In this document: positions 33,352 through 63,211 of the stretch, one piece after another
Position numbering within the stretch: the stretch's first letter is position 1
Layout: each line of letters opens with the position of its first letter
Translations under genes and position numbers: made by a program
Source of the DNA: Plectrocnemia conspersa
Taxonomy: Eukaryota > Arthropoda > Insecta > Trichoptera > Polycentropodidae
Length of the DNA stretch: 64,000 nt
Reading direction: 5' to 3'
Assembly: GCA_009617715.1 (NCBI GenBank)
Contig: VTFK01000379.1
Location: 1 to 64,000 of the forward strand
The notes under the pieces: generated by a model
The model's database searches: none
Told to the model about the DNA's origin: nothing
Seen by the model: only the letters and a program-made list of their open reading frames with translations

Positions 33352-36300
33352 ATGGGTACAGATGTTGCCAAGGTTCAGATGGCGATAAAGGCGACGGCCG
33401 AAGATGGAAAATCACAGGATAAAGAAAATGGACACAAGAGAAAGTGCAGACCTCACAGCGCCCATAATTTTTCGACTAGGAAGCTAAGTCCAGGTGTTTT
33501 TTTGTGTGTCGATTAGATTTTTACTTTATTTTGAATGCGTGTTTGAGGTATATAACTGTTCAAAGACAAATAGCCCAACGATCGAAGTACTATTAAGTTT
33601 ATTTTATGAGTGTCTAGAATATTTTTAGTGACGTGCAAAATCTAGATTGCTTACAATAAAAATATAAAATGAATGATTTTTCCATATTTAATAAAATAAA
33701 TAATATTTGTTATTGTTTAATATAATATATGTATCTTGAATAACTTAAAAAATGCATAACATTTAAAAAATGCAATATTTTTTGCAAATGTAAGATTTAG
33801 TTTAAAATACTGAAATTAATTACATAAATACATTAAATATAGTTTTATTACACAAAAAGTAAATTAGAAAATTGTTTTGTATACTTGTAATATAAATAGC
33901 CATTATAACGATAATTGGCAATTTAAGACCCGAACCGTTGAGTTAGTAGCACTAATAAACATAAAATTAATGGGTTTAAACGATAATTTAGTTATTTTTG
34001 CATAATGTTGCCTTAAAAGTGCTATTAAATTATAAAGGCATTTCTTCATCTGAAATAAATATAAAATGGAAAATTAACTTAAGCTTACAATATCGTTTCT
34101 TGAAGGATCAATAGATACATACATACAATACATATATATATATATTTTATATAACTAAGCAAAATTATCGTTTACTACTATATAAATATATGATAAATAC
34201 ATTTCAATACTTTAATGAAATGTATTTATACTTATATGGTATAGGTCTTGAAATGTATTTACGTTTCAAGACCTGTACCCAAATTTTTGTTTTTATTATG
34301 TTTGATTTCATAGACATTATAAAGGTATTTCGCCATAATTCTATGATTATAAATAAATCCGCTTTATAAGTCAATATATGTATGTCTTGTATATACGCAC
34401 GACATTATTTTAATCACTATTTTTTTTATAAATTTGAATGTATTCATAATATAGTTATAAGCAGGGCTTTTTTAAATAAAAAATGGTGTCGTAAGTTACT
34501 TTTTGTCTAGCTTTTTACTAAAAAAAATATATTCAAATATCATTTAAATGAAATTTAAAGCAGCTTTTTCTATGCCGCGAAGCGCATAAAAAATAAAATA
34601 ATATTTATCATATTTTTTCTATACTTTAGACATGTCAAATCTAAAGTTAAAAGAACAAATACAAATACAGAACTGAAGACTAAATGTAAAATAAAATTGT
34701 AAAACATCATATATTTGAATAAAAGTTTATAGTGATTTACAAAATTTTATTCAATTTTCGTCTGACAACTCTTCTCTATTTCTATTTTTAGATTTTTTAT
34801 CTGAAAAACCAGAGATCAACGTATTTTGAAGGATCGAAAAGTGGCAAAGGTGGCTGGGTGCGAAACTGTATTATTGAGGGATGATTATTGAACTGATATT
34901 CGAGGGATGTTTATGTTGCCTCAGTCGCAGCCTTGGCCCTCGGTTTCCTAAGTTGATCTTCTGTGCTTTGCTCGTCATAAATTGCGCTTCACGCACTACC
35001 TTGGACGGCCAGTCCGAGAGTTTACTTCCCCTCAAGGGTTTGGGTTTTAACCTCAAGAGTCCCTCGCTCTATCACACTGTTATCGGCGAACTCCAGCGTG
35101 TGGTCGACTACCGCCGTCTGTGATTAGAACAATGCCAAACTATAATGGAAGGAAATTTCTTTGTCAGGAATTTTTCACTCCACTTTTACATCCTAACATC
35201 ACAGCAGCGCCGTCGCATGCTACCGAAACTATTTTTTTTAAAAATCTTCTGTCATCCTATAAAAATCAAGATATTGGAGTAAGAACTTAAATATTCCTTA
35301 AGCCGTTATGTTTTCAAGTTCAAAAATAAATTATTCGGTGAATTCATTCTAACGCTTTCGATACAGCATCGAACATACACAGTGAGGGTGGTTTTTATGC
35401 TTATGGTGGTAGATTCATCAATTATCAATGAAATTATATTCTTCGATTGAACAATTTTTTTAAATACATTTTTTCTCATTTCATCACTTATATGATACAC
35501 AATATTAACGCATACGTTTGTTGAATGGAGAATATTCAATTATTTTATTATTTTTAAATATGTGTAGACACGTATAAACAAAAAAGTCAGTAAATTAATT
35601 TAGTCAAGTTAAAAACCATTTTATATGCAGCTAACTTCATGCGTTACACATGGTTGTTTATTATATTATTGTTTATAGTATATTTTTTTTTAAATGACCA
35701 TACTGTACTGTTCATTTTAATAGTACAATGATTTTAAATTCATTTTATTGTTTGAACCACTCTAAATACTCTGAATGTAAATATTCTGTATGATTTTTTA
35801 ACTTAATTTAGTATTTTAATTTAATAAGATACTTCGTACAATAAGGTTAATATAAATCATTCATATTTTTATATGTATAAAAAATATTTAGTAAACGATT
35901 ATAACTATCATACTTAAATATAAATATTTTATCCTACAAGCTGACATTATGAAATTATTATTTTTAGAATAAAGTTGTAAGATTTATTTAATATTTTAAT
36001 TTTATCTTACAATCTTTTTCGAAGAGCACAATGAAGGCCCTAAGCATTACCGTCCGTGGATAAGTAACGACCGATGGAAAGAGTTAAGAAAGATGGCAGA
36101 AACAGCTTCAAAGGAGAAAAAAATATTTCTGATCAAAGGTGGCGGCTTTCCGGCGATAAGATATGCTCTTTTAGAAAGAGGTTGGGTCGAAAAAAAAGTC
36201 GACTCTTTAAAACCAAGACCAAGCAATCCTTATCCGTTCAGCAATGAAATTCCAGCACAAGAATCCTTAGCGAAAAGCTTAAACGATTCAGACCGCCTAT

Positions 36301-39300
36301 TAAAGTTTAAATGTGAAAAGATGATAATGAATAAATTTTTGGAACATCAACCTGTCGACTTTCTATGGACTACAAAGAGAGACAAATATGATTGGATGCT
36401 AGTTAAAAAAGATGTCGTAATAAGCAGGTAAGGTTGATATTTAATAAATGTTTATGAACATGGTTTAAACGCCATGATTAGGTTTTCTAGATCAAACTTT
36501 ACAACAAAGGAAGGATTATGCGCCGGACTCAGTCAAATGTATTGGTATACCGAACCAGGAGTTGCAAGCATTATGTTTCCAAGATGTTACATTCTACACA
36601 ATCAGGAGCAAATGGATGAATTTATTGACGACTTTCGGTTAACTGCTTGTTTAGGCCTCTTAAAGTGGTTCATTGCTAAATATAGTAAAGGAAATATTGA
36701 TAGCATTTCATCATCGTCAGGAAAAGTGCCTTATACGTCAATCGACTTTTCTATTAGCAGAGTAAATGAATATTTAATGTTTGTGTGTCATAATGACATA
36801 GACGATGCGGAAGATAGGTCTAAACATATTTGGGAGCACGAATGGGACCAATTCTTGACTCATCATTATTTGCTAATACATGAGAATGCTAAATTTACCG
36901 AAGACAAATCCGTTTGCTTAAGGTATAAGTTATATTTAATGACTCATGAATCACATTTAGATAACTAGCAGTAGGTATTGCACTTGTCATTAATAATCTA
37001 TTTCATTTTACATATTTTAACGTACTGTACTGAGTACATTCTCACATTCTCTTTGTAGTGAAAAAATTGATAATAATTGTAATGGCATGGTAAATCTTAT
37101 CAACACTCTATATTATGTGGGCATATCTTGTCTCCAATTACATTATTAAAAGTTATAAGTCATATTCAACACCATTCTCTCCGACATATAATAAATCTGC
37201 TTGTTTTACTTTTTTTTCATATAAAAAAGTGTTTCTCTCACCAATGGTCTCTTCTTTTGTCGTTGTAGTGTGCAAAATTATTCATTTTCTTCATTAGCAT
37301 TGTTTCGTCGGGATCTAATTACTCTTTAAAAATCTAAAAAAACTATATATCTTAAAATAATAAAAATAACTTATTACAGTTCGCTTGAAAAACGTGCTGC
37401 ATCAACTTTAACATCCGTTAGTAAGTATTTGCCTCAAATGGACATAGATGGTGTTATGAATATTTGGATTATAAAGCCAGGAAATAAATGTAGAGGCAGA
37501 GGTATACAATTGATGAATAACATCAAAGATATAATTGGAATTGTAAATTTTCCTATGACGGCTAAAACGAGATTCGTTGTACAAAAATATATAGGTAACA
37601 ATATTTTATGTTTTGCTATGAATAATATTTATTATTAATGAATTTTTATTGCATTAGAAAACCCGTTGATTGTATATAACACCAAGTTTGATATCCGGCA
37701 ATGGTTTTTAATTACAAGTTCTCAACCACTCACTATATGGATGTATAAGTTAGTATAATATCATTTTACATTTCATATATTATAGATTGAAGGATTCTTA
37801 TTTAATTTGAGATACTTTTAGAGATAGCTATTTAAGATTTAGTTCACAGCTGTTCAATTTAACAAACTATCATGAGTCTGTACACTTGACCAATAACGCG
37901 ATTCAGTCAAAGTATAAAAATCACAATCAAAGAGATAAAGCATTACCTGATGAGAACATGTGGGATTGTCATACGTTCAAAACATATTTGAGGTGAAAAT
38001 ATATTTTGTATTATGATAAAAAATATTTAAATTAATATTTATTTAATAATAATTATAGACAAATTGGAAAATCAGGCGTTTGGGAAGATAGAATATATCC
38101 AGGAATGAGAGAATGTTTAATCGGAACGATGCTCGCTTGCCAAGATTCAATGGATCGTCGGCAAAACAGTTTCGAATTGTACGGTGCTGATTTTATGTTA
38201 ACTGAAGATTTTACTCCATGGTTAATTGAGATTAACTCAAGTCCGGATTTAGCTCCTACGACAAGTGTAACAGCAAGACTTTGTCCACAATGTTTAGAGG
38301 ACGTCGTTAAAGGTACTTATTTTATGATTGAGTGTTGTATGTAATTATATTAATGCTATTTTATTTTAGTTGTAATTGATAGAAAATCTAATCCAGAAGC
38401 TAGCACAGGGATGTTTGAATTAGTGTACAAACAGATCATTCCACGAGCACCGGCTTATCTAGGCTTATCATTATCAGTAAGTGGTAAGAAGATATTCAAG
38501 AAGATCAAAGTGGATAAACCAAGAATTGAACGAGAATACACGCCTGTGATACATAAGCCCAAACAAGAAGAGCCTGCAGAAATAAACACACATACTAATA
38601 CTCCTGTAATGCCAGATTTGATGGCATGGCTTCAACCGTACGGATCTGATCCGAACGAAATTTCAAAAGAATTCGATAAGAAAACTGTCCCGACTGTTCA
38701 ACATGCACTAACGGTTGTAAAATCAGGACTTTTGATGAAGACTTCGAGTAAAAAACGCAAATCGACGTCTCATATATCGCTACGGAGCAGAAGTGCAAGA
38801 AAGGATAAGAATCAAACGGCCAAATCAAAGACGCCAACGTTAGGAACATATTGTTGCAAAAATGACAGTGAATTGAAGGCGGCAAACTGTTATAAAGAAT
38901 GGAAGAAGAACTGCAAATACCATGATAAAAATATAGTTGAAAAAGTCTATTGGCAAGATCCAAACATTGTGAAATCGGTTGGTAATAAGAGGTGTTATAT
39001 AGAACCATCCATTTGGGAGAGAGATACTGCTAGTATTTTGAGATCGCGTTCTTCTTGTTTGCAGAACATAGGCAAATTGGAAGGCAAGCAGCAAATGCAA
39101 ATCACACCGAGGGTTTTCAGTCCTGGGATCATGTCTTACAGTAGAAGAAGTAGGCTGGTACATAAAAATGCTGAGGGTGAATCTTCAAAAGCTTTTTCTA
39201 GCTTCAGCTTGAACATTAGACGTCTTATTCAATGCAAAAAAGAAAGTAAAAAAGCTCAAGAAAACAATAATTCTAAGAAATCGACAAATCAACAAAAAAC

Positions 39301-39331
39301 ATTGGGATCAACAGATGTAATTGCTAGTTAA
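33352..39331 (+). CDS. TTLL3: Tubulin glycylase, TTLL3 type (complete, 8 exons)
   Basis: Predicted 892-residue enzyme that adds glycine side chains to tubulin tails, mainly in cilia and sperm axonemes. Coding exons: 33,352-33,493; 36,025-36,427; 36,482-36,922; 37,380-37,594; 37,658-37,748; 37,822-37,992; 38,059-38,312; 38,370-39,331. Every junction is GT-AG and keeps the frame. Hallmarks of the TTL/ATP-grasp fold are present: K-I-F-L-I-K-G with R-G-W-V-E-K-K near residue 80-105, [16 protein letters not shown] (K358), K-F-D-I-R (410-414), [15 protein letters not shown] (D532) and P-W-L-I-E-I-N (E545, N547). After the catalytic domain comes a basic, low-complexity tail of about 300 residues. 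The 47-residue first exon is supported by its Kozak context, the upstream in-frame stop and perfect phase. The assignment TTLL3 rather than TTLL8 rests on insects having only the TTLL3A/3B group. Confidence 0.92.
34800..35130. other. GC-richer insert in TTLL3 intron 1
   Basis: A block of higher GC inside the first intron, with overlapping open frames on both strands (34,881-35,123 plus; 35,056-34,871 minus). No domain is recognised. It adjoins a hAT relic and is probably part of an old inserted element. Confidence 0.4.
35135..35540 (-). pseudogene. hAT-type transposase fragment in TTLL3 intron 1
   Basis: The minus strand gives [12 protein letters not shown] and T-L-T-V-Y-V-R-C (35,450-35,360). 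Further on, after frame changes, there is [16 protein letters not shown] near 35,215-35,165. These are the 'DESTT' (first catalytic aspartate) and 'DGAxVMLGxxSGV' motifs of DUF4371-hAT transposases. Stops and shifts between them show that it is inactive. Confidence 0.75.
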
Positions 39332-39396
39332 AAGTGATGTACATTTTTGAAGAATGATAATCAAAATTATTTTCTATTTATTCAGTTAATTAATTA

Positions 39397-39402
39397 AATA
39401 AA
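39397..39402 (+). terminator. Polyadenylation signal of the first TTLL3 gene
   Basis: AATAAA 66 bases after the stop codon; the first canonical signal downstream of the gene. Confidence 0.55.
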
Positions 39403-40028
39403 TTAACTGATATTATGTATATCCTAGAAAATATTTAATGTACATGTTATCTTATTGACTGCATACATACAGACTGTTGAAGTATGTTTATTAAAAAAAT
39501 ATAAATAATTAAATAGTGCACTAACTAAAACTGTTTTAAAATAATCATTGATCTTACATATTAATATGTTCATGTTGTAAACTAAAATTGTTTAATTTTC
39601 TAATAATTAATTACAAGCTATTAATAGTGTTATTTTACAAAACTGTTGGCTTAAATATAAAATGGCAATTAAATAGTTAAATGTTTTAAATCAATTATTT
39701 ACTTTCATGTCAAGCTTATGACAATTATAAATGTATTTTAATGTTATAAATGTTGTTCATTAATGTATTAAATAATTGTTGATATTGTATCTAAATAAAT
39801 TATATCTACAGTTATTGCTAGCAATATTTTTTAATTCTTTTCAGGTTATTTTAGGAATAATAGGTAGTTTATATTTCAATAAGTGATTAATAAATCATAC
39901 TTCTGCAACAAAAAACGATTGGTAAGCTCCAAATATATGATATTTTTACAGACTATCCTAAATATACATATTATACAATAGATTTGCCTGGAGTACCCAT
40001 AATCGTTGCGTCGAAATTTTTAAAAGGG
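39403..40028. other. Intergenic stretch
   Basis: AT-rich; nothing recognised. Confidence 0.45.
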
Positions 40029-40451
40029 TCATACAACTGAAACACACATAAATTGCAACATTCCAGAGGAAAACCACGTTGCAAAATGTACATAATTTCG
40101 AATTTCTATCGAAACGCTGTTACACACCCCAAAGACTTTGATGAGACAAACCAAAGAGTCTGGTTCCACCCTGAGTCTGCACTGGGTGAAGGATCGAGGG
40201 CTGGAAGGAACGTTGAACTTCCTGCTATTTCTCGATAGTATGTAATCTAGAATGCTGTCATACTTAATCACTTCCATTAAAACTTCAATCAAGACTTGAG
40301 AGACCCTTCGCTTTCGACTTGGAATAACGAGAGACATCAGAACTTGCTCTAGGAGAAGCTTCATTGAATAGACCAAGATGACCGTCTGAGGCAAATTCAT
40401 TTCAACCGTCCGATCTATTCCAACTTTTTTGAAAAATACAACATTAAACAA
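40029..40451 (-). CDS. Unassigned 140-codon open frame
   Basis: A continuous frame of 140 codons in a block of higher GC than its surroundings, between the two TTLL3 genes. The predicted protein has a basic patch (P-S-R-K-R-R-V), a hydrophobic middle and three cysteines in its last third. I recognise no family. A different frame over the same stretch also looks protein-like (G-H-L-G-L-F-N-E-A and S-K-A-K-G-L-S-S-L-D), so a frame-shifted old element is equally possible. There are no obvious splice sites and no transposon ends. Confidence 0.25.
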   Translation of the reverse strand: MFNVVFFKKVGIDRTVEMNLPQTVILVYSMKLLLEQVLMSLVIPSRKRRVSQVLIEVLMEVIKYDSILDYILSRNSRKFNVPSSPRSFTQCRLRVEPDSLVCLIKVFGVCNSVSIEIRNYVHFATWFSSGMLQFMCVSVV

Positions 40452-41036
40452 AAAATTTTAAATTTGTTTAAAAATTTTTCACTCGTTTCACCTTAAGCCA
40501 CAGTTACTGGTATTGTACAAAATAATATTAGGAAATATTGTTTTTTTTTATTTACAAACTGTATGGATAAATTTTTTTTCAATTTTTGTATCATATATTG
40601 AATTTAAATGTCAGATAACAGATAACAACTCACCATGATCATCGTTATATTTGTTTCGTAATTTTTTGCTTTTTCCCGAATTACGTCGTCATTCAAGTAA
40701 TTGAATGCATTATTTATTTATCTTACTGCATCAAATCTAGTTGTCAAAATACCGATAAAAGTTTGGATTCGTTATTTGAGGTCGTTTTTTTATAAATATA
40801 TTCTAGCTATGGTTTTTTCCAGAGTTGGGACCCTCAAGGAGAACATGCCCTAGGAATTTGTTCCCTCCCCTTTCCCTCTCGGCAGGCCTGATTGTATGTA
40901 TCAACAAGGAATAGCTAAAAAAACGTGTAATTAATTTCTTGATTTAAGGCATGATGAATAAGATTTTATTAATTATCCGATTATGTTTTTAAATTCTCTA
41001 AATCAAAGATGATTACCACATCGCTAATAACCCTTA

Positions 41037-41585
41037 GGCCGGTTTCACACGTGCCGGGTGGATTTGCCCGGCACCGGGCCAGCGCCGTGTAGTGGGGATG
41101 GTGTTGTATGGGCTAGTACCTATCATTTCAGACGTGCCGGACAAATCTACCCGGCGCCGGCCCGACGCTGACTGCCGGGTTGTCGCCGGCCGCGCTCACT
41201 AAACTGTCCGGCGCCGGGTACCGAGTTGAGTGTGGTGGGGGTAAAACTCAAACATGAACCGGGCCGTTGACAGTGATTGTGGTATCTTGTAATAAAATTA
41301 TTAAATATATTCCTCGTGTTTAGGCAATAGCGGAAGAAATAGACCTCGAAATTTTAATTATATTAATGTAATCTCTTTTAATTATCTTAGTAGAATACAT
41401 ACAAAAATAAAAAAATAACGCGAAATGTGTGGAAGGACTTATGTGTGAAGCCGTTAATCCTAAATTACTGGCACCAGTTGACGGGGTATAGGTCGGGTTG
41501 GGAAGAGACCGGCCACGTGTGAAAGCTTTGTAAACGGCGCCGGCCCGGTGCCGGGTGAATCCATCCGGCACGTGTGAAACCGGCC
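41037..41585. mobile_element. PIF/Harbinger-type MITE with TTA target duplication
   Basis: A 549-bp GC-rich element. The terminal inverted repeats are GGCCGGTTTCACACGTGCCG at the left and the inverse (CGGCACGTGTGAAACCGGCC) at the right, and they continue imperfectly through CCGGCGCCGG-type repeats. It is flanked by TTA on both sides (41,034-41,036 and 41,586-41,588), the 3-bp target duplication of PIF/Harbinger transposases. Non-coding: the minus-strand open frame in its right half and the flank lacks any domain. Confidence 0.9.
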
Positions 41586-41588
41586 TTA

Positions 41589-42223
41589 ATGTTGGTTGCA
41601 CTATTAGGTGTCAAATTTTAATCTAACAAAAGTGTGCAATGAAACACAGTTAGTTGTTTAGGCATTGAGCACATCATTTGTGATTGAGTAAATGATCTTG
41701 ATGGACGGATTTAAAGTCGAGAATTTATTCCCTGAATTAATAACTATATAACAATAATAAATCATTTTACTATTTATGTCGTAATGTCATAAACGAAGCA
41801 TACAAAAACCTGTATGTGCTGACAGATGAAAAAAATATCTCATTCGACACTTGGGAATAAAATCAGGCAAAGCCTGCTAAGAATTGTTACATATACTTTT
41901 TCATACTAAAATTTTTCTATGTGCTCTGCAGCTGATACACATGATTATTTTTAAGCATTTAAAGTATTAGTTTTGATTTTAAAACTTGATTATGAAAATA
42001 TATAGCGAAACACACAGAATGAGCAAATAAAATCAGGATTAAGTGGGCATAAGTGAAATATAATGTTTATTTACTTTATATAATAAATAAACTATAAAAG
42101 ATGTAGTGATTATATATGTTTGATCAATTAGTTTTCAATTTAAATGCTATTTACTGATTCAATGAAACATATGAATATAAAAATAGTTAATTTTTATTTT
42201 ATCCAATTATCTAAATTGAAGCA
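41589..42223. other. Upstream region of the second TTLL3-like gene
   Basis: AT-rich; no recognisable promoter motif. An in-frame TAA 10-12 bases before the ATG at 42,224 supports that start, unless a splice acceptor lies in between. Confidence 0.4.
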
Positions 42224-45200
42224 ATGGTAAATCTAAAAATTGTAAGTATTCCAGTGAATAAAAATATTTTTGGTGCAAAAAATACAATGGAAATACCTCC
42301 AGTAGTAAGGATGAGAAAGTTAGAAATAATTTTAAGTAATTACAGTAGAACGCAAAATACAAAATACAAAGAACTTTGGAAGAAAGCAAAAACTGCAATA
42401 TTAAACAAAAAAATATTCATTATTCACAGCTCGAATAAGAATTCTCACATTAGACATTTATTGAAAAATAGAGGATGGGTTGAAAAATTGGATTTCAGGA
42501 GACTAAACTATCTTTTAAGCGAATTGAACGTTGCCAGCAATGATAGCATATTGGAGGTACTGATACTCGCAAAGGTAGTGAAATCAAATCCCGCAAACTT
42601 TGTATGGTTTGATGGAGAGTATAGCAACCTTAAATTAGAACCGTATCAAATGTGTAATAAGATAAGATTTAAAGGCAATTGCTTCACCACAAAGAGCGGA
42701 TTATGTGAATTAATAAAAGATAAAAAGTGGCATTGTATACCTGGCATTTCTAATGTGAACGCTCCGAGATCTTATAATGCATATAATGTGGAAGAAGTAG
42801 AAGAATTCAAATTTGATTATAAATTGACAGCTTGTACAAGTTTGTTAAAGTGGTTTGCTGCTACTTATGATAGAGACGAGATGTTATTTGAACAGAAAGG
42901 TAACATTCCATTTTCGATGATACATTTCGCTTTGGAAGGATGTAAAGTATATATGGCTATAAAGAAACACGAAGATATCGATAAGGTCAAAATTGGGAAG
43001 CCGATATATAACTGGAATGAATTTTTGTTAAATTGCCATAAGCTGATACAAAAAAAAGATTATTTGAATTTTGATATAAATGATGGGATTGAAATTTATG
43101 TAATGTATGCCAAAAATGTACTCGAGCGCATTGGAAAGTATAATCCGCAACTCAGTTGGGAAGGGATATTCAACGTTTGGATTATAAAACCAGCGAATTT
43201 GTGTCGTGGTAGAGGAATTCTTATGGAATCTGATTTAAATACCATATTGAAAGTCAGTACACAAAATTGTAAACTGAAATACATCATACAAAAATATATG
43301 GGTAAGTTAAAGTGAATTAGAAAGAAAAGCGGCTAGCATAATTTCCAATCATTTATTTGTAACACAATGAAAATTAATATACATTTACTTCTAGACTGCA
43401 ACCAAAGATTTTTCTGGCATGTGTAGTTTCTTTGTTGTAGTCGATTTTATCATGGATTAAAACTGTTAGTTTTACTATGATGAAATATTAAATTATGTCA
43501 ACTATTATATTAACATTGTGCTTATATTTTTATCATTAGACTTGACCATAAACAATTGTAGATACTTATCGGTAAGGTTCCCTAATACAATTACCTGGAA
43601 TATATAGACTCACGGTGGATGATCAGGTAAAATGCCAATCAATATATTAGGTAATAATATAGGTTTGTGCAGTTTTTAGTGGCGTCACTTATTCATCCAG
43701 GTTTTATTGTAGAATTATAATTTATACTGATACACAAATAAAATTCAGGTGTCCAAGAAGAGTCCAGGTTGATCCAAAAGGAGCTGTAGCAGGCAGTAGA
43801 ATTGTAGACTAGTAAGGTCATCACAGGGCGTAAAAGTGGCGAGCCTCTTTGACTTTTGGTAGTGTTGTTCTGAATCAGGGTCATGCTCTCTTTTATACGT
43901 TTCCTTGAATGAGGGCTTATTTAGACCAATGGCCAGACTGTTTAACCCCATCCATATACAACTCCTCTAATGAAGCAAAAGTATGTGTTCGTGTGGCTCT
44001 TTATAGGCGAAACCTTTGTGGTCACTTATCGAATGTCGACAAAAGATACAAGTACAATGTTATGGTGTGCGAGGCTATGAGTTTTGTTCGACGTGTCTTG
44101 AAGATCAGCAGTAAATTCTATAAGTCTAGTGCGGTTTAGTAATTTTGGTTACGGTAATTAGCACTAATGGTTGTCAAAAGTCTGCCGACTTTCAAATTCT
44201 TGAATGTTTCGTTTTGCAAAATACTGTGCAACTATTTAGGATCTTCTATATATTTTTATTTATTAAAAATCTAGTAATGGCAGAAGTTTTAAAATAAGGT
44301 TTTATTCGTTAAATTAATAGCGGCAAAAAAGTGATAACTTATTATTGTATAATATATCACAAATATTTTTATGAAAGGAATGCATAACATAATCTCGAAT
44401 ATTTTTTGGTAAAATAATATTTAATGTAAATATAGACAAGCATATCGAAAGTTAGTTTTGTTAAAAAATAATACTTATAAAAATATTTTTAGGAACTATG
44501 TTCATATTTGTAATAAGGAAATATACATTTTAATGTCATAATTGGTAATAAAAGTATAAATGGATAAATTTTGTAAAAGTAATGATTTCATTATTGAATG
44601 AACGATAATGAATCTTTGAAATTAGTAAAAACAAATCAACTATAACATAAAAACTATGCTAAGAAAAGTTTTGTTTCTAAATGTTGTAGAAAATTATGCC
44701 TGACTTTTTCTTAATATACTTCATCATTTATAATATACGTATTATTTTTTTTAGAAAGACCTTTACTGATCTATGAAACCAAATTTGACATACGTCAATA
44801 TTACCTCATCTCAAACACCAACCCGCTCACAATCTGGATGTATAAAAATTGTTATTTGCGATTCGTGTCAAGAAAATATTCCCTTGATAATTTTCACGAA
44901 TCCATTCACCTGACAAACAATGCGGTTCAATGTAAATACAAAATGTACGACGACGAACATAATGATATCCCGAGTTATAAAATGTGGGATTTGTGTAAGT
45001 TCAAAAATTATTTGAGCAGCATCGATCGCGGTGATGTTTGGACCGAAGTTAATTTATCCTGAAATGAAGCAGAATGTGGTGTGCGTCATGTTGTGCTCGC
45101 CGCCAGGTTTGACGGATTGTACAAAATGTTTTGACTTGTACGGATGCGATTTTGTGTTGGATGAAAATTTTAAGCCTTGGTTGATTGAGATAAATGCGTG

Positions 45201-45914
45201 TCCTGATTTATCGGCCAGTACACCGGTTACGAGCGTGATATGTAAAGCTGCATTAGAAGACATGATAAAAGGTATAGTAATATTAGTATCATCATTTGTT
45301 TAACTGTAACGACTACTCAGTTGATTCCAAAATTATTTGTCTTTTATTTTATTTATAAATGCTATTCCAATTTCTTGGTATTGCGGCAGTATGAAAAATC
45401 ATTTCAGGTAAAGCTTGATAATAGCACAATACTATTGTCAATATGTATCACCTTGCGGGCGAGTGACGTCAGGCCGAAAAAATAATATTTTCACTGTTCA
45501 GAGAAGGAATCAAGCATTGTATTTTTATGTGACATTCAGAATCAACATCTAACTGAATTGAATTGCCTTTAAATTGGTTCTGAGTGTGCATATTTCATTC
45601 TTACGTTCGAGATGAGCGTTGAGCATTAGACGAGTCCTTAAATTGTGTCCCCAGTGGAGTGCTCCGTTCAATTATATCAATGGCTTGAACTGCGTCTCCA
45701 TTGGCAACTCAGAATCAGGCTTTCTCGACTCTGTTTCATTCTCAATTATTTTCTTTCAGTTGTCATCGATTACAGATCTGATCCGAAAGCTTCAACTGGG
45801 GACTTTGAATGCATATACAGAGAAAGGCAAACACAGTATTTCAATCAATTTGAAAAATCAAGTTTGAAGGTTCAAGGAAGGAAGATACCAAAGAATATAT
45901 TGCATTTAATTTAA
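42224..45914 (+). CDS. Second TTLL3-like glycylase, 3 exons, with a frame break
   Basis: Tandem paralogue of the gene at 33.4-39.3 kb. Exons: 42,224-43,301; 44,755-45,271; 45,760-45,914 (about 582 residues if the frame were intact). The fold motifs are present: R-G-W-V-E-K, F-T-T-K-S-G-L-C, W-I-I-K-P-A (K322), K-F-D-I-R, H-L-T-N-N-A-V-Q, F-D-L-Y-G-C-D and P-W-L-I-E-I-N. The usual K-P-G is K-P-A here. Exon 2 carries one extra base near 45,048-45,052: the upstream frame stops at 45,060-45,062, while the homologous sequence continues in the next frame from I-Y-P-E-M. As read, the protein would end before the metal-binding E-I-N and be inactive. Four introns of the first gene are missing, and the long basic tail is absent. 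It may be a functional gene with an assembly error or a young pseudogene. Confidence 0.8.
43680..44140. other. GC-richer insert in the intron of the second TTLL3-like gene
   Basis: A block of raised GC within the 1,453-bp first intron, with several overlapping open frames on both strands and no recognised domain. It is probably an inserted repeat such as a solo LTR or MITE. I could not define its ends. Confidence 0.35.
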
Positions 45915-45939: not shown

Positions 45940-45957
45940 AATAAAAAAAAAAAAAAA
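45940..45957 (+). terminator. Polyadenylation signal fused to an A-tract
   Basis: AATAAA at 45,940-45,945, only 25 bases after the stop codon, runs directly into a 15-base genomic A-run (45,943-45,957). It may be simply an A-rich 3' end or a trace of reverse transcription. Confidence 0.5.
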
Positions 45958-46292
45958 CATTATTCTCGTTTACCTATTTATTAACAAAACCGTTGATACA
46001 AATTGTACGAATGCTTTCTTATGTATTAATTAACCGCAAGAAAGCAAAACAATTGTATATCAACAAATTCATATGATTTTGCAATTAATGCACAGCTGTA
46101 AAAACGTTTACTATGTATATCAATAGTAGTAAATAGTCAAAATTCACCAATCGGATGTAAAATTCGCCGTAAATATTTATATAATAACTTAATTAAATGA
46201 ATAATAATAATGTAACGTCCGATTCAAATTATTCACATGTATGATAGTAAAGCCGCAAATTACATCTATCGTGTCACTTCACGAAACACATT

Positions 46293-46349: not shown

Positions 46350-49300
46350 TCAAGAAACGGGTTTCAACTGAAATGACAACTTAGGTCTGGAATTATTTTT
46401 ACCAAGTATTTTTTTTTGTTCCTCCTTTATCCGCTTCTCTTGTTCTTTCTTGAGCTTTTGCCTCTCCTCATCCATTTTACGTTGCTCTTCGATCATGGCC
46501 AAACGATCTTCCGCCTGAAAAATAAATATATTTTCTTAGTATCCATTGTATTATGTTATACGAGGTGTGACAATTTAATTTCTGGGTCAGTTTATCTAAC
46601 GTAATCTTTAACATCTTCACGGCTTTGAAATACATTAATAAAACTGTGGCAGCATTAATCTGGAAATTAAATTGCCACACCATATAATGTATATATATAT
46701 ATATATAATTACCAGTTTTCTCTGGGCTTCTTCGATTTTACGATTGTTTTCTGCCATGATCGCTTCCAGAGCTTGTCTTTTGCGGGCTTCTTCCTCCTGT
46801 ACAATAAGATCGTTCGTTTAATTTTTATACGGATTCAGCGTCCATAATATAAACACTACATTCAAACACACTTTCGTCATATAAATAAAAATAAAATATC
46901 ATACTCAAAATGCATCCAATCACATCAAACATGTTTCAACAGTGTATAAAATAATATATATATATATATACATATATACGGGAATCGTTTGACAAAAATA
47001 TTGTGTGATAACATATGGAAGTAAATTAATCAAAATAAAATCCAAACCTGATATTTTCATTGGAACATTCTGAAAAGTCGAATCATTTGCAACTAAATGA
47101 TGCCAATTGCCTATGTCTCTCTCCGTTCCTATGTTGATTATGTTAACTTTACTTCATTCATTCTACAAAACATTCATATTGGGATTTTTAGATTCTAAGC
47201 AAAAACATCAATAATACATGAAATTTTCGTTCATTCCCAAAATCGATGACTTTTGAAGTATTCCATTAAGACATTAAGAAAACAGAGATGAGTGGTTAGA
47301 TGCAAATCATTGACTTTACGATTTGGTGGATCAAATCGGACAAATTTGTAACTGTTTTTGACGGTGAAAACGACGATGGTCGTCACGAATAGCAGGTTTG
47401 AGATTGATAATGCAAATAGTGTTATTTGCAATATTTTTTTTAAACAGTCCAAGAAAAATATCTCCAAAAGTCAGAGAGCGACTCACCACTCGAGCAAGTC
47501 CCTGTGTAGTAGGTCTTACGAAAAAGTCGCGCTGAAAACACTGTCATCACACAACTGCAGACCACTGAGATGAAAAAATGATTAAAGTAGTAAGATATCA
47601 AATAATACCTTGAGTGAGTAGGCCACTACCGTCAAAAGCAGCCGTCAGCCGTTAACGACACCTTGGTGATGTTCGGTTCGCGTACTGTTCTGTCTTGATA
47701 CCTAATTTATCGATTGAACGATCGGTCTGTGCTACCGGTCATTACTTACGATCGCTCGACTCTAGCCCTTCACGGTTAAGATTCGTATGTGGTTTAGTTT
47801 TTTTTTTTGTGATAAATGCGAGCGAATCGATTCAAAACATAAAAACAGCATGACATTAATATTTTTGTTGATGTTTCCTTTAAGTTATTATTATTTAAAA
47901 AAATTTAATAAAAAAAAATGAGTCAAGCGTGTTGTTAGATTGAAAGTTTCCAAAAAAGTTTTTTTTTAAAACAATAAAAATAGTATTAGTTTTATTTCAG
48001 TATTATGTGAATGAATCAATGTATCCCTGGAAAGAATCTGTGTGTTCTGGTGTAATTTTTAAATGATTTCCGTAAAAACCGATCGCGATCTGTTCACCTC
48101 CCAATGAGGGGCCCGACTGCTGTTAAATTCGTTACGTCAACTGAATTAAAATCTCAAAAACGACATGTAACAGCAGTCCCTGGTCTGGTATACAATATGC
48201 AGCCACATGGTCAGAATGTCGTCGCATATTGCAAACGTCGTCCAAAAACAAGGAAGTATTATTACCTCACGACATTTTTCCTCAAGGCGTTGCTTTTCTT
48301 TCTGCCGCTCAATCTCCGCCATCATCTCTTTCTCCATTAGTCTTTTGGCTTCTTCCACTCTCTTGGCCACTTCGGTCTCTATTTCGTCTTTGCGCTTTTC
48401 CAACTCTTCGTCGACTCGCTTTTTAACCAGGAGTTCGATCCGCTTGGCAGCTTCTTCCTCTACTACCTGTCCGAATAAAAAGTGACGTATGAGAAACAGT
48501 AGCAGACTATATCTATAAGATCCATTGTTGGTACTACATCTCAGACTTCATTTTTTCTAATCTTCAATTGGAGCATTATTGTTAATCAATTTTTCTTAAA
48601 TTTATTTTTATACTATTATAAATATAGTTTCAATTTTATATACATATATATAATTATTTATCCTATAATTATATGATTTTTAAATTAACGTGTGTTTGTG
48701 TTATTAAATTAAATATTGCATAGTTATTCATTAGGACCTTGCTCAAAACCCCAAGAAAATTGTTAAAGTAGTAAGATATCAAATTTTGCATATTCTTGAA
48801 GTAAATGTATTTTTTAAATGTCCGCGTCTTATATATTTAGTGTTAATAAATTCATTTATGACTTACTTTTATTTTATAGTGACCATGCATAAAAGATTTT
48901 GCTACACAAAAAATAACTAGATTTATACGTAAAATCACACAGTGATTACAGTTGTATCATTAGATATGTTTTTTTTTATCAGTTATTTGATAATATTATT
49001 ATTTGTAAAGGAAAAAATATATTGTATTATATTGCGAACGTTTGAGAAGTCGCGCGTACTTTGACATCATCGGGTCTAAGTAGGAAATGCATTTGTGTGC
49101 GTGCATAAACAATGATCAAAAAGGCATAGCATGGTCTTGTTCTATGCTCCATTCAAAATATTTCGGTCTCTCGGCAGTTAAACAAATTTAATTGTATAAT
49201 ATATTATGTATATATTATATTGGGTTGATAAATAATGGTTATATACAGGCTTGGCCATAATATTGGGGCACCCCAATAAATGTGTTATATGTTAAAAATC

Positions 49301-56627: not shown

Positions 56628-58712
56628 ATGGAGTATATTAGAAGTTTACTATTGATGGTTCTATCGGAGCAATGCTTCGACGAATATTTCTTAAAAGTAA
56701 ATTTCTTAGATGGTGAGTTGTTAAATCGTTTTTTTTTCTATTCGACACAAATTCTGCGCTCGAGTGGCTGACCTTTCACGGTTGGAAAATCAATCGATCA
56801 TTGTTATTTACGTTTCAGTGCCGTGCTTCAAAAGCTCGATTAGCAAAGTTCTCGGATTGTTGATCATTGCCGGATCGGTCACGGTCAAAGTGCCGCAAAT
56901 CTTGAAAATTACCAAAGATGGGAGCGGCAAGGGAATAAACATAATCGGTGTCAATATGGAATTGTTCGCCATCACAGCTACAGTGGCTTATAGTTTCGTC
57001 AAAGAGTTTCCTTTTAGGTATGACAAAAAAAAAGATTTACATAAAACTATAAAATAATAAAATATGTTTTTTGTAGCGCATGGGGAGATGGAATTTTCTT
57101 ATCTATACAAACATCAGCGATTTGTGCATTTGTTATGTTTTATGATGGCAATAAAAGCGGCGCTGTTGTATACATAATAGGATATTTTGGCATTTTGTTG
57201 GTGCTCATGAGTGGTATTGTTCCAATTCAAGTTTTATGGGCCCTCCAAGCTTGCAACATACCAGTCGTTTTCTTCGGGAAGGTAAATATGCTTTTCAGGT
57301 TATTTAAAATTAATTGCCAAGCCTTGAATTCAGAGCATTCTATTGCAACATCAATTTGATATTCAACTGTATGTTTCGAGGTGCTCAAGAAGCAGTTTCT
57401 CAAATAGTTTGGAAATAACTAGAATAAAGAATTGATATTGACAGAAATTAAGTTATATTGTCAGTTTTGGTATCATAATCATTTCAACTATCTTGTATTG
57501 TTTAGTCATGTATTTCAGTCTAAAGATGGTGTTTAATGGATGCGTAAATTCCACTATAGTTTTATACGAAAGTTCTTTTATTTATAATCATATTGTCCCT
57601 TTTCTTACGCTGATATTCTTATAGATTTCGTTTTACACATTTAATGTTACATAACTCAGTGGACTATTGTCTTCATTTTTCATCAGTTGTTTGTGTTGGA
57701 AATATTTCTGTTAACTTTTCAAAGGCTCTATAAAGAGTATTATTGTTTTATCATTTCATAAAAAAATATTAATAGATTCTTGTTTGTATAAATGTAAATC
57801 CCTACACATGTATGTAAATAAATAAAAGATCTTAGCTATTTCTTTCGTCAGAAATAATACCTTTCATCTCAAAAGCGTAGCTATTTCCTTTTAAACATCG
57901 GATAGTTTCAGGCGTATCTTGGATCGGTCTTTTAACATCACCGAGCTGTTATTTTAATTATATCCTAAAGCTTTGTCAGTCGGTATATATGTTTTCTTAG
58001 CAGAGGGTGTTTCCTTATGATTTTTTTCATTTAGCAATAAAACGATCAAATGTGTCATAACAATTTTTTAAGTCAACGAAATTGATTCAAATGTAATACT
58101 ATCTTGACTAATAGTATAATTGATAAAAAAATAATCCAAATCATTCATGTTTTACTGAGCAATTATTCATAGTACATAATTTAAGAACCTAAATTATTTG
58201 TTTACACAATAATAATCAATAATTTTATCTCAGAAATGAAGTAATCTTTATTTCATTATTTTTTGCTAGAAAAATAATCAGGAAACAATCACTGTAATAA
58301 TTCTCATAGGTGTTGAGGTCTAGTGCGTTTTATAAAAATCATAGATAATTTTATTATCTTATCTTGTAGCTACTGTTATTATTAGAATATTAAATCAGAA
58401 TATAAAAAATATTTTGTAATTGTAAATCAAGGGAAGTATTGGTTAAAATTTGTCTCTTTACAGATGATCCAGGCCTACACAAATTATAAAAATGGCAGCA
58501 CAGGTCAATTATCAGCGATCACTTGCTTCATGTTGCTCTTCGGCTCGACAGCACGTATCTTCACATCAATCCAAGAGACAGGAGACTTCATCTTGATCCT
58601 GACATATTGCATCGCATCTTCAGTGAACTGCTTAATCGTAGGGCAGTTAATTTGGTATTGGAACGTAGAGAAACCGACAAAGAAAAAACAAAAACATTCC
58701 AAAAAAGACTGA
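56628..58712 (+). CDS. MPDU1: Mannose-P-dolichol utilization defect 1 protein (complete, 4 exons)
   Basis: Predicted 245-residue ER multi-pass membrane protein; human MPDU1 has 247. MPDU1 is needed for use of dolichol-phosphate-mannose and -glucose in N-glycan, GPI-anchor and O-/C-mannose synthesis on the ER lumen side. Exons: 56,628-56,712; 56,819-57,017; 57,077-57,281; 58,464-58,712, all GT-AG and in phase. It belongs to the PQ-loop (MtN3/SWEET-like) superfamily. The first PQ motif is V-K-V-P-Q-I-L-K (P54-Q55), followed by G-S-G-K-G-I-N and about six more hydrophobic segments. The second repeat starts with I-Q-A-Y-T-N-Y-K-N-G-S-T-G-Q-L-S, and the tail is lysine-rich. The V-P-C-F-K-S-S junction and W-A-L-Q-A segment are family hallmarks. 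Introns 1 and 2 are short (106 and 59 bp); intron 3 is 1.2 kb. Confidence 0.95.
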
Positions 58713-59340: not shown

Positions 59341-62300
59341 TTAATTTTCTCCTTTGGATGATGTGCTGACTTCGACGTTCTTTTCTTGTTCGGGCATCGC
59401 TCCATGTTCTCCGTTATCGGCCCACTTTCCGTCATATTCTTTCCTATCAACATAGCGTTCTTCTTCGTATTCACCTTCGCTTCTACCTCCATCGCGCTCC
59501 GAATATCTAAAAATCGAATTTGATCAGTAAAAATTTATTTGAATATACTTAATGATTTATGATAATTTACCTTTCGACTTTATCTTTATCTTGATGTCTA
59601 CGGGCATTTTCTTCCGGTGAATAGCTGCGACTGTGTCGTCTGCTAACCTCCGGGCTCCTGGATCTAGAGAACCTCATACGACGATCTCTATAATCACGAT
59701 ATCCTCCCCTAAAATTATAGATTAATATTTAATCATATTAGAAATAAAAAATGTGATAAAAGTAATAAACGATACATACCTGAATGGTCTTCCACGATTA
59801 TTTCCTCGTTGCCTAGGGCGATAAGGACGTCCACGACCGCGTCCATCGCGCCAATCAAATCTTCGATCATCTCTGCGGAAATTATCACCCGAACCACGTG
59901 GTCCTCGACCGCCGCGTTGACCGTACGGTTGGAATCGAGGCTTATAATAAGTTCCACGATCGTATCCGCGACCCCGCCATCCTCCACGTCTATTAACGCG
60001 TCGGAATCTTTATAACAATAAAAAAATTTGAATAGTTTGTTACATACCTAAATTCATATTTTTATAGATATATACCTGTCTCTCGAAAGAGAGCGAGACC
60101 TGGAACGCGACCTAGATCGACTACGACTGCCAGGAGAACGACTACCTTCAGATCTTGAACCGGGTGAGCGAGATCCCATTGAACGGCTGCGGCGGTTGTG
60201 CCTTCTTGATCCGGAAGAAGAGGATCTTGATCCCGAAGTGTGAGAACGATATTTTCTTGGACGAGATCGACTTCTTGAAGAACGTTTATGAGGAGATTTT
60301 TTATCGCGTCTATCGTCTCTGCCTCCACCTGAAGATTCTCGAGATCGACTTCTGCCATGAGGGGGTGATCTGGGTCTTCTTCTCGGCTCCGGAGGTCTTG
60401 GTCTTCCGCCCGTAGGTTGTCCCGGCGGCAAAGGAACAGACATGGGTATTCCGGCTGCATTCTCTCCTTCTTGCACAAGGCGGAATGAACCGAATTTATC
60501 CAGCACGACATTTTTGATAGGCGGTCTTACCTATGTAAATAAAAAAAAGATTATAATAATATATGTATATTTTATTACATGAAAAAATAAAAATAAATAC
60601 CTCTTCAGTTCCTGGTGGTTCTGGTTCTACACTATGCTTGAGAGGAATAGGTTCCTTAAGTGCCATTGCGCGTCTTACGCTTATATTTTTATCATCAGGT
60701 GATGGTTTTTTTCCTTTATTCATAGGGTCTGCAGATTCTTCAGATTCCTCAGAGCTTTCGTCGAAAGCATAAGCTTTGCTATCGTTCTTGTATGTCGGAC
60801 GAGGCAGTTCTCTCTTCTTAGATCTGATACAAAGTAAACATTGAATCTGTGGTATATGACAAAACTGAAAGACAAAATAATACTCACTTATCCTTGGACG
60901 TATTTAAATTCAGTTTCATTTTGGGCTTTTCCATTGAAACATCGGGACTAGCAGATCTGGATTGATCGAACATGTCACTATTTTGTCGTCCATTATCTTG
61001 CCTTTTAGTAAGCCCCGTGTCCTTTTCAACTTTGGCATAATAAGCTGTTAATTTAGATTCCAATTCCTCTAAATCTGGGATGTTTTCCAGAATCCTTTTT
61101 CCAGGACCATGTTTTTTATCGTAATCGTTACTATCTGGACTAGCATCTTTTTTGTTGCGCCTTTTCTCATCGGCAGGTTTTTGAGAAAGTTCTTTTCTAA
61201 AAAAAAAATTAAAATATATATTAAATCAAAAAATATGTTTTATTTCAAGTGTGACATATGCTTTGGAGGAATTGACAGATTTGATAACTAAAATATTCTC
61301 TGCACTACCTGTGTTATTTATTATACTTTATTTTCAGAAAAACCAATTTAGATGATAAAAAGATAATTAAAAAAATACGAAACAAAGATATTTTTGGAAT
61401 TAGAGATCTTGGGAAAAAACTTTTTTTTTTAAAGCACATGCAATATACGTTTATTATTACATTATATTTTTCTTTTTGTAAAAAATATAAAAATTACAAT
61501 TTTACAGCAATGGCAACAATTTCCATAAAAATACTAGTGTCACATCACTGTGCTTCACCTAAACGTATTGCACTATACCTCAAAGCATCTCTAAACTTTT
61601 TATCGTCCATATTTTGATCAAAATCACGCAAGTAATCTCCCGTGGAAGTAGAAGTACGCTGGGCCAGTTTTGCTTTACGGCGCTCATCACGTTCTCGCTC
61701 CTTGCGTTTTCTTTTCGACTCTTTTTTACTTTTCCTATTGAAAGTGATATAATTAATTAATAAAAGACAATAAAAAATTTAAATAATATATATTAAAATA
61801 TATTTACTTTGATTCTTTCTTTGCCTTCCTTCTAGCTTTGCTGCTCTTCTCGTGTTCTTGAGTACCGAGCTCTTGAAGCTTTCTATCTCGTTTGTAACGC
61901 GCTGTTTCCTCCAACAATTTACGAACTTTTTCTTCATAATCCGAGTCCTCTTTAGTCGTTTCCAAAAACTTACGCACCTATAAATTCAGGGATATTATAA
62001 TCTACGTTCAATATTATTAAAGATATTTGTGATCTTACTTTCATCTCATAGTCCAGATCTTGAGTATTGACATGAGGTACAGCAGGCTGTTCAATATTTT
62101 GAGCAGGAGTGGGAACGGGCTGCTGACCCGTCCAACCGTAGGGATGGTTAAATTGAGAACTGTTATTTTTTTCCATTCTTTTGCTCAACGGAGACAATGA
62201 ACGCTGTTTCTTGGCGGACGATCGAGACCTTCTCTTCTTTTTATGATGACCACCGCCTTCTGCACCTAAAATTAAGTATTTCACGAAAATAGGCAAGATT

Positions 62301-63211
62301 GAATAAAATAAATGGGATTTACACACCACTCGAATCGGACGTTGAAGTCGAGGACTCTGAGCTGGAATCTTCGCTCGAAGACTCACTGGAGCTCGAACTA
62401 GAACTGCTGGATCGGTGCTTCTTTTTTCCTTTGCCCTTCTTCTTACGTTTAGATTTTTTCTCCTTTTTGTCAGTGAGGTTGAGAAGCTGCTTGAGTGTTT
62501 CCTTCATTTCGTATTCTTTAGTACCGGGTAAAACGAGTTCGGTAGGTTCGATCAGAGGCTTCGATGAATTAGTCTTATTTTTCAAAAAGTCTAGGGAGCT
62601 CTTCGCTTCTTCGTGAAACGGTATGATCGCAAGGCAATCTTCGTACGCTTTCTGAGCTTCTGCCAATTTGTTTTCGTCTTCATAACTGCGACCGAGCGCC
62701 ACTAGCGTTTCGCCCATGTATTTCCTAGCATTTGCGTGATTAGGATTTAATTTCAAAGACGTCTCAAAATCTTCGATGGCCTTCTTGAACGTTCCACTAT
62801 TAGCATAGAGGGCTCCACGGGCGACGAGACCTTCTACGTTCCGCGGATCTATGTTCAGTGCTTTGTTTAAGCATTGGAAGGCTTCCGAATGCCTTCCTGC
62901 TTTGAAATGCTCGATTCCTTCCGCTACGGATCTAAACGCCCATTTACTAGCCTGCGCCTGTCGCAGTTCGTCGGCATACTCTTCTGTTGGAAACCCGCCC
63001 CTTTAAAAATATTGATTATTAACAATATGTAAATAAATTTAAATACTTGAAAAAAAAATGAAGAAGCACCTCAGAGATAAAAAGTTTGTGCAATGCATCG
63101 ACGATATACCCAACAAATCAGATAGGTAATGAGACACAGTTCGGATTGTTAAAGCCGGGACTTTTTTCGAGCACAGCTTCGTAGCTCTCTCCTTTCATAT
63201 CGCCAGTTTTT
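59341..63211 (-). CDS. TTC14: Tetratricopeptide repeat protein 14 (C-terminal part, 11 exons)
   Basis: Minus-strand exons: 63,211-63,070; 63,000-62,327; 62,265-62,039; 61,977-61,808; 61,734-61,579; 61,196-60,888; 60,823-60,601; 60,530-60,076; 60,007-59,780; 59,708-59,571; 59,506-59,341. They encode about 960 residues. The N-terminus, with the S1 RNA-binding domain in this family, lies beyond the window. The order is: G-E-S-Y-E-A-V-L linker; three TPRs in the 674-bp exon ([15 protein letters not shown], then [10 protein letters not shown], then [10 protein letters not shown]); K- and S-rich stretches; an RS domain; an R-G-G-rich part ([13 protein letters not shown]); and a second short RS part ending S-S-K-G-E-N. 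Function is probably nuclear RNA binding or processing. In the first exon one extra T (63,128-63,129) breaks the frame between N-P-N-C-V-S and Y-L-S-D-L-L-G; this is likely a sequence error. Confidence 0.93.

Follow-up and report, generated by a model that had tools for sequence, protein, structure and literature searches.

Tandem TTLL3-type genes of a caddisfly differ by four introns, probably gained in part in one copy and lost in part from the other

Two TTLL3-type genes lie in tandem in the 64,000-nt stretch of Plectrocnemia conspersa DNA analysed here (hereafter the window), and the second of them (copy 2) is uninterrupted at four of the six intron sites found in the region that it shares with the first (copy 1). 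We consider it rather probable that this difference goes back to an ancient tandem A/B pair with separate events, namely gains of introns 2 and 3 and losses of introns 5 and 6, and that the common phase of the four introns is coincidental. The difference is ordinary intron turnover, though well polarised, and it illustrates that a striking intron difference between neighbouring genes can build up from long-past gains and losses in paralogues.

Copy 1 extends from an ATG at 33352 to a TAA at 39329-39331, and the phases of its seven introns, all of them GT-AG, are 1, 2, 2, 1, 2, 2 and 1 in order (Table 1). In a protein search it showed 74% identity to a 'tubulin glycylase 3A-like' protein of Arctopsyche grandis, a hydropsychid caddisfly, over 96% of the query, by which the window is caddisfly-like. 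Both copies grouped with proteins annotated as tubulin glycylase 3A/3B in the protein searches and in the trees, and exon 1 of copy 2 also matched PDB entry 5vlq ('LOC100158544 protein', E 5.9e-22), which we take to be a Xenopus TTLL3. The identification of the genes as tandem TTLL3 glycylases, already proposed in an earlier note on this DNA, is thus supported by family, neighbours and tree, with the activity itself being predicted.

Table 1 Features of the tandem TTLL3-type genes in the window, with sites numbered after the introns of copy 1.
Feature	Position	Strand	Remarks
Copy 1, TTLL3A-type gene	33352..39331	+	Spliced model, 8 exons, 892 aa
Copy 1 intron 1	33494..36024	+	2531 bp, phase 1; outside the alignable region; without counterpart in copy 2
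Copy 1 intron 2	36428..36481	+	54 bp, phase 2, GT-AG; absent from copy 2; probably a gain in the A lineage
Copy 1 intron 3	36923..37379	+	457 bp, phase 2, GT-AG; absent from copy 2; probably a gain in the A lineage
Copy 1 intron 4	37595..37657	+	63 bp, phase 1, GT-AG; common to both copies
Copy 1 intron 5	37749..37821	+	73 bp, phase 2, GT-AG; probably ancestral and lost in the B lineage
Copy 1 intron 6	37993..38058	+	66 bp, phase 2, GT-AG; probably ancestral and lost in the B lineage
Copy 1 intron 7	38313..38369	+	57 bp, phase 1, GT-AG; common to both copies
Copy 2, TTLL3 'B-type' paralogue	42224..45914	+	3 exons; Pfam TTL in pieces; B clade support 99
Copy 2 exons	42224-43301, 44755-45271, 45760-45914	+	End at 45914 includes the stop of the shifted frame
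Copy 2 intron at site 4	43302..44754	+	1453 bp, phase 1; same codon as copy 1 intron 4
Copy 2 intron at site 7	45272..45759	+	488 bp; same codon as copy 1 intron 7
Copy 2 +1 frameshift	45033..45062	+	Inside the TTL domain; TGA 45060-45062; homology resumes in the next frame

The earlier note had described six introns in the shared region of copy 1, numbers 2, 3, 5 and 6 in phase 2 and numbers 4 and 7 in phase 1, and their lengths and phases were confirmed. It had also stated that copy 2 keeps introns only at sites 4 and 7. These indeed fall at the same codons in both genes, a homology of position far beyond chance, and copy 2 is unbroken at the codons homologous to introns 2, 3, 5 and 6 (42659, 43091, 44844 and 45015, respectively); the alignment places the compared introns at homologous positions rather than at different codons. 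The match in phase at site 7 is a qualified one, as the copy 2 intron is phase 1 in the shifted frame supported by homology but phase 2 in the frame of the ATG. The wording that copy 2 lacks exactly the phase-2 introns of copy 1 holds within the shared region but not beyond it, where the phase-1 intron 1 is missing from copy 2 as well. Exon 1 of copy 1 is similar to the N terminus of protein P0001, and the N termini of the two copies are not alignable around intron 1. Upstream of the copy 2 start, an in-frame stop is found at 42212.

The reading frame of copy 2 is not intact, which the earlier note overlooked. A +1 shift, with a TGA at 45060, breaks the frame within 15 codons after site 6, and the TTL family (PF03133) was recovered above the cut-off in three pieces of copy 2, in two frames and on either side of the break. 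Of the five pieces of both copies submitted to Pfam, four contained PF03133, including copy 1 piece 38036-38344, and for copy 1 piece 36000-36431 no Pfam family was matched. A short intron masking the frameshift was ruled out by inspection, with homology on both sides and no residues missing. The frameshift probably stems from an error in the assembly or from a very recent real lesion, because copy 2, when read through, keeps 83 of the 101 residues invariant among 15 TTLL3/TTLL3A rows, its close caddisfly B relative P0121 is 85% identical to it over the first exon, and its tip branch next to P0121 is short (0.061 in a tree of 68 rows). Seven other B-type rows keep 87 to 92 of the same 101 residues. 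As part of the explanation that we favour, copy 2 would have been under constraint until recently.

The known counterparts of this pair are the TTLL3A/TTLL3B-type glycylases of insects (PF03133), which it resembles in the TTL domain, in the tandem arrangement found in other insects and in the invariant residues retained by copy 2, and from which it differs in the broken frame of copy 2. According to one study, the initiation and the elongation of glycine chains are functions of TTLL3A and TTLL3B in Drosophila, and the family has a role in fly sperm tails, in which polyglycylation is studied (PMC3925317). 'B-type' is used here for membership in the clade of lepidopteran and coleopteran B proteins; another paper reports that Drosophila TTLL3B has no obvious homologue beyond the Diptera (PMC6826512).

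The pair does not appear to be recent. Copy 2 shares 38% identity with copy 1 (208 of 542 aligned residues), 44% with an Arctopsyche protein and mostly 42-46% with lepidopteran B-type proteins among the matches listed. In trees of 68 and 49 rows, copy 2 grouped with lepidopteran and coleopteran B proteins with a support of 99, in a clade separate from trichopteran, lepidopteran, dipteran and coleopteran A proteins, and in the 49-row tree all 17 B-type rows (copy 2, Lepidoptera and Coleoptera) fell on one side of a branch with support 99. Both trees came from quick searches with SH-aLRT support and no bootstrap, and the B branches are long; the second tree retained 49 of the 68 rows of the first after long-branch, near-duplicate and short rows were dropped. 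The fused beetle model P0020 (Asbolus) consists of an A half followed by a B half, which is the order in the window. Moreover, the largest source contig is equal in size for the A and B proteins of Arctopsyche, Cydia pomonella, Ostrinia, Colias and Epargyreus; in Chilo, Mythimna and Tuta, the two proteins bear neighbouring gene numbers. Given the place of copy 2 among lepidopteran and coleopteran B proteins and the A-to-B order of the beetle model, the pair would already have existed before beetles diverged from Amphiesmenoptera (the group of caddisflies and Lepidoptera), presumably hundreds of millions of years ago. A recent tandem duplication was ruled out by the tree together with the low identity between the copies. 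The one ant second half placed in the 68-row tree grouped with Hymenoptera on a branch of 2.36.

In the same tree, the B stem of caddisflies measured 1.43 against 0.31 for the A stem, and the Arctopsyche B tip 2.01 against 0.16 for the A tip; the B gene of caddisflies seems to evolve far faster than the A gene. The A-type P0033 and the B-type P0132 are both listed with a largest contig of 5215 bp, and if they lie on one intron-free contig, A and B may be carried on one read-through transcript in a moth.

The introns of other species were read at the protein level, from the ends of ORFs and gene models and the indels in them, rather than from DNA. When a fragment ORF left the family at an exact codon and continued with residues fitting a splice donor, its contig was taken to be most likely genomic with an intron at that site, and fragments of this kind can polarise intron states without access to genomes. 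The searches with copy 1 and copy 2 gave 1972 and 286 proteins, respectively, and the best 120 of each were used; the indel scan covered 221 proteins among the matches listed, or 230 rows after fused models were split. A profile search with exon 3 (A1) gave 27 hits, comprising 12 A-type fragments (nine lepidopteran and two caddisfly by match, with P0237 uncertain), two dipteran, one collembolan and 12 beetle B-type ORFs (two by source name and ten by best match), and the taxa of many fragment ORFs are likewise best-match assignments. P0244 and P0247 were excluded as evidence of continuity, because their sources are annotated and the sequences may be spliced models. One scan each of genome contigs and viral contigs for insect loci recovered no relative, and no paper on the intron evolution of insect TTLL3 was found in the part of the search results that was listed.

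At site 2, an intron was detected in all four lepidopteran A ORFs that reach it (P0222-P0225), each of which begins there. The site is continuous in the dipteran P0226 and P0238, in the collembolan P0233 and in the beetle B ORFs P0227, P0231, P0234, P0236, P0241, P0242 and P0245, and the beetle B ORF P0243 departs at or near it and could have an intron there. At site 3, the A-type ORFs all leave the family (12 of 12), and the Scirpophaga A model has a deletion ending at this site; the collembolan P0233 and the beetle B ORFs P0227, P0231, P0234, P0236, P0243, P0246 and P0248 are continuous, with P0241 and P0242 stopping upstream. The lepidopteran B ORFs P0166 and P0167 and the caddisfly P0121 run through both sites. 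Site 3 was sampled in lepidopteran and caddisfly A, in lepidopteran, caddisfly and beetle B and in Collembola, and site 2 also in Diptera. As introns 2 and 3 occur in lepidopteran and caddisfly A genes and the sites are continuous in beetle B genes and the collembolan, parsimony makes both introns look like gains in the A gene on the line to Amphiesmenoptera. A more specific version, in which TTLL3A acquired two precise spliceosomal introns of the same phase on the amphiesmenopteran stem and its tandem sister lost two adjacent old ones, we judge to be evenly balanced between true and false; if it is true, the pair allows dated intron gain and loss to be compared side by side.

The remaining four sites gave a different distribution. 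P0166 and P0167, whose best matches are lepidopteran B proteins, carry 30 and 31 aa of inserted sequence exactly at site 4, are continuous at sites 5 and 6 and run off exactly at site 7, so these two lepidopteran B genes appear to share the two introns of copy 2. The intron at site 4 is also indicated by P0121, which ends there, and by the beetle B ORFs P0227, P0231, P0234, P0236, P0243, P0246 and P0248, and the site is continuous in the collembolan P0233; at site 7, a Vespula model carries a 9-aa insert. By parsimony, introns 4 and 7 would have been inherited by both A and B. P0233 ends exactly at site 5 with no residues beyond, for which a contig end is the alternative cause, and intron 5 is probably present in this collembolan. 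Deletions in the Asbolus A model and a Mischocyttarus model start at site 5, and in the fused Asbolus model the B half picks up again there, at a deletion edge, hinting that beetle B genes still have intron 5. Outside Amphiesmenoptera, intron 6 is indicated by one ant isoform, P0208, with a 20-aa insert at site 6. Based on these data (lepidopteran B for both sites, Asbolus, Mischocyttarus and the collembolan for site 5, and the ant for site 6), introns 5 and 6 seem to predate the pair, and B would have lost them before caddisflies separated from Lepidoptera.

Introns of the family also occur at other places, namely 10 codons past site 2 in Hymenoptera, about a dozen codons before site 3 in Diptera and 8 codons before site 5 in Drosophila. 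Shared break points elsewhere (YYR^C; HE^D) are seen in the beetle B-type P0241, P0242, P0244, P0245 and P0247, the last three differing in place from the first two, and beetle B genes may have later introns of their own. With several lineage-specific intron places in the sample, the TTLL3 family is a usable, not an exceptional, test case.

The earlier note had named two alternatives, that copy 1 gained the introns or that copy 2 lost them, and each fits one half of the pattern, gain for introns 2 and 3 and loss for introns 5 and 6. The comparison with outgroups that it proposed, made here on protein fragments, divides in the same way, with sites 2 and 3 continuous in Collembola, intron 5 probably present in Collembola and intron 6 in the ant. 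An ancestral origin of all four introns with subsequent loss from B, either in two steps or in one step through a partly spliced cDNA that kept introns 4 and 7, with independent losses in Collembola and Diptera, seems to us unlikely, though worth weighing: introns 5 and 6 do look old, the two lepidopteran B ORFs lack all four introns, P0243 may carry an intron near site 2, and such a cDNA could in principle act in one step. A study on reverse-transcriptase-mediated intron loss in Drosophila adds that losses there are enriched for adjacent introns and germline-expressed genes, with the expected 3' bias being absent (PMC3296678). Against it, the collembolan ORF and beetle B genes read through sites 2 and 3 and two dipteran ORFs through site 2, and other lineages have introns at different places nearby. 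Since intron 4 is situated between the two pairs, it would have disappeared as well had the cDNA been fully spliced; a single event for all four therefore implies a donor that retained introns 4 and 7, together with separate losses at sites 2 and 3 in Collembola and at site 2 in Diptera. The recombination with cDNA suggested in the earlier note is plausible for the adjacent introns 5 and 6 but needs that special donor for all four at once. Introns 5 and 6 are adjacent and precisely absent, as in the Drosophila losses described in PMC3296678, and given this adjacency and the germline bias of those losses, their joint loss fits such a recombination; the differences are that introns 2 and 3 do not look lost, that the retained intron 4 separates the pairs, and that beetle B may keep intron 5.

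It is extremely improbable that copy 2 arose recently as a semi-processed retrocopy from a partly spliced transcript of copy 1. Its few introns and a run of 15 A at 45943, shortly past the stop, would suit such an origin, but the run starts inside an AATAAA at 45940, the identity to copy 1 is low, the clade of copy 2 includes lepidopteran and coleopteran proteins, and the two lepidopteran ORFs show the intron set of copy 2. Comparison of 41800-42230 with 45955-46060 revealed no flanking direct repeat of more than 7 bp, and on the tree, the shared intron set, the position of the A run and the lack of a long repeat a recent retrocopy was rejected. A process that selectively removed or added phase-2 introns is also very improbable. 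In the shared region, the introns that differ are phase 2 in four of four cases and the shared ones in none of two, a pattern already described in the earlier note; yet the chance that the four missing introns are the four phase-2 ones among six is 1/15 (0.067), the absent intron 1 is phase 1, and the four introns probably arose from two kinds of event at different times. The phase rule is most likely a coincidence. According to the reading that we favour, ancient tandem TTLL3 A and B genes would both have inherited introns 4 and 7; the B lineage would have lost the adjacent introns 5 and 6 before the separation of caddisflies and Lepidoptera, possibly through one recombination with a spliced cDNA; and the A lineage would have gained introns 2 and 3 on the amphiesmenopteran line, with no special mechanism needed for the phase that the four have in common.

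Rfam and tRNA scans of the window found nothing. Between the two genes, an element of about 550 bp (41037-41585) has inverted ends with 63-nt arms that are 87% complementary and is flanked by TTA at 41034 and 41586; we take it to be a non-autonomous DNA transposon of the Harbinger type. Judged by their translations, an ORF near 46350-46535 on the minus strand presumably represents an ARGLU1-like end, ORF pieces at 56725-58712 on the plus strand an MPDU1-like gene, and the ORF at 60054-63002 on the minus strand a TPR/SR-rich protein.
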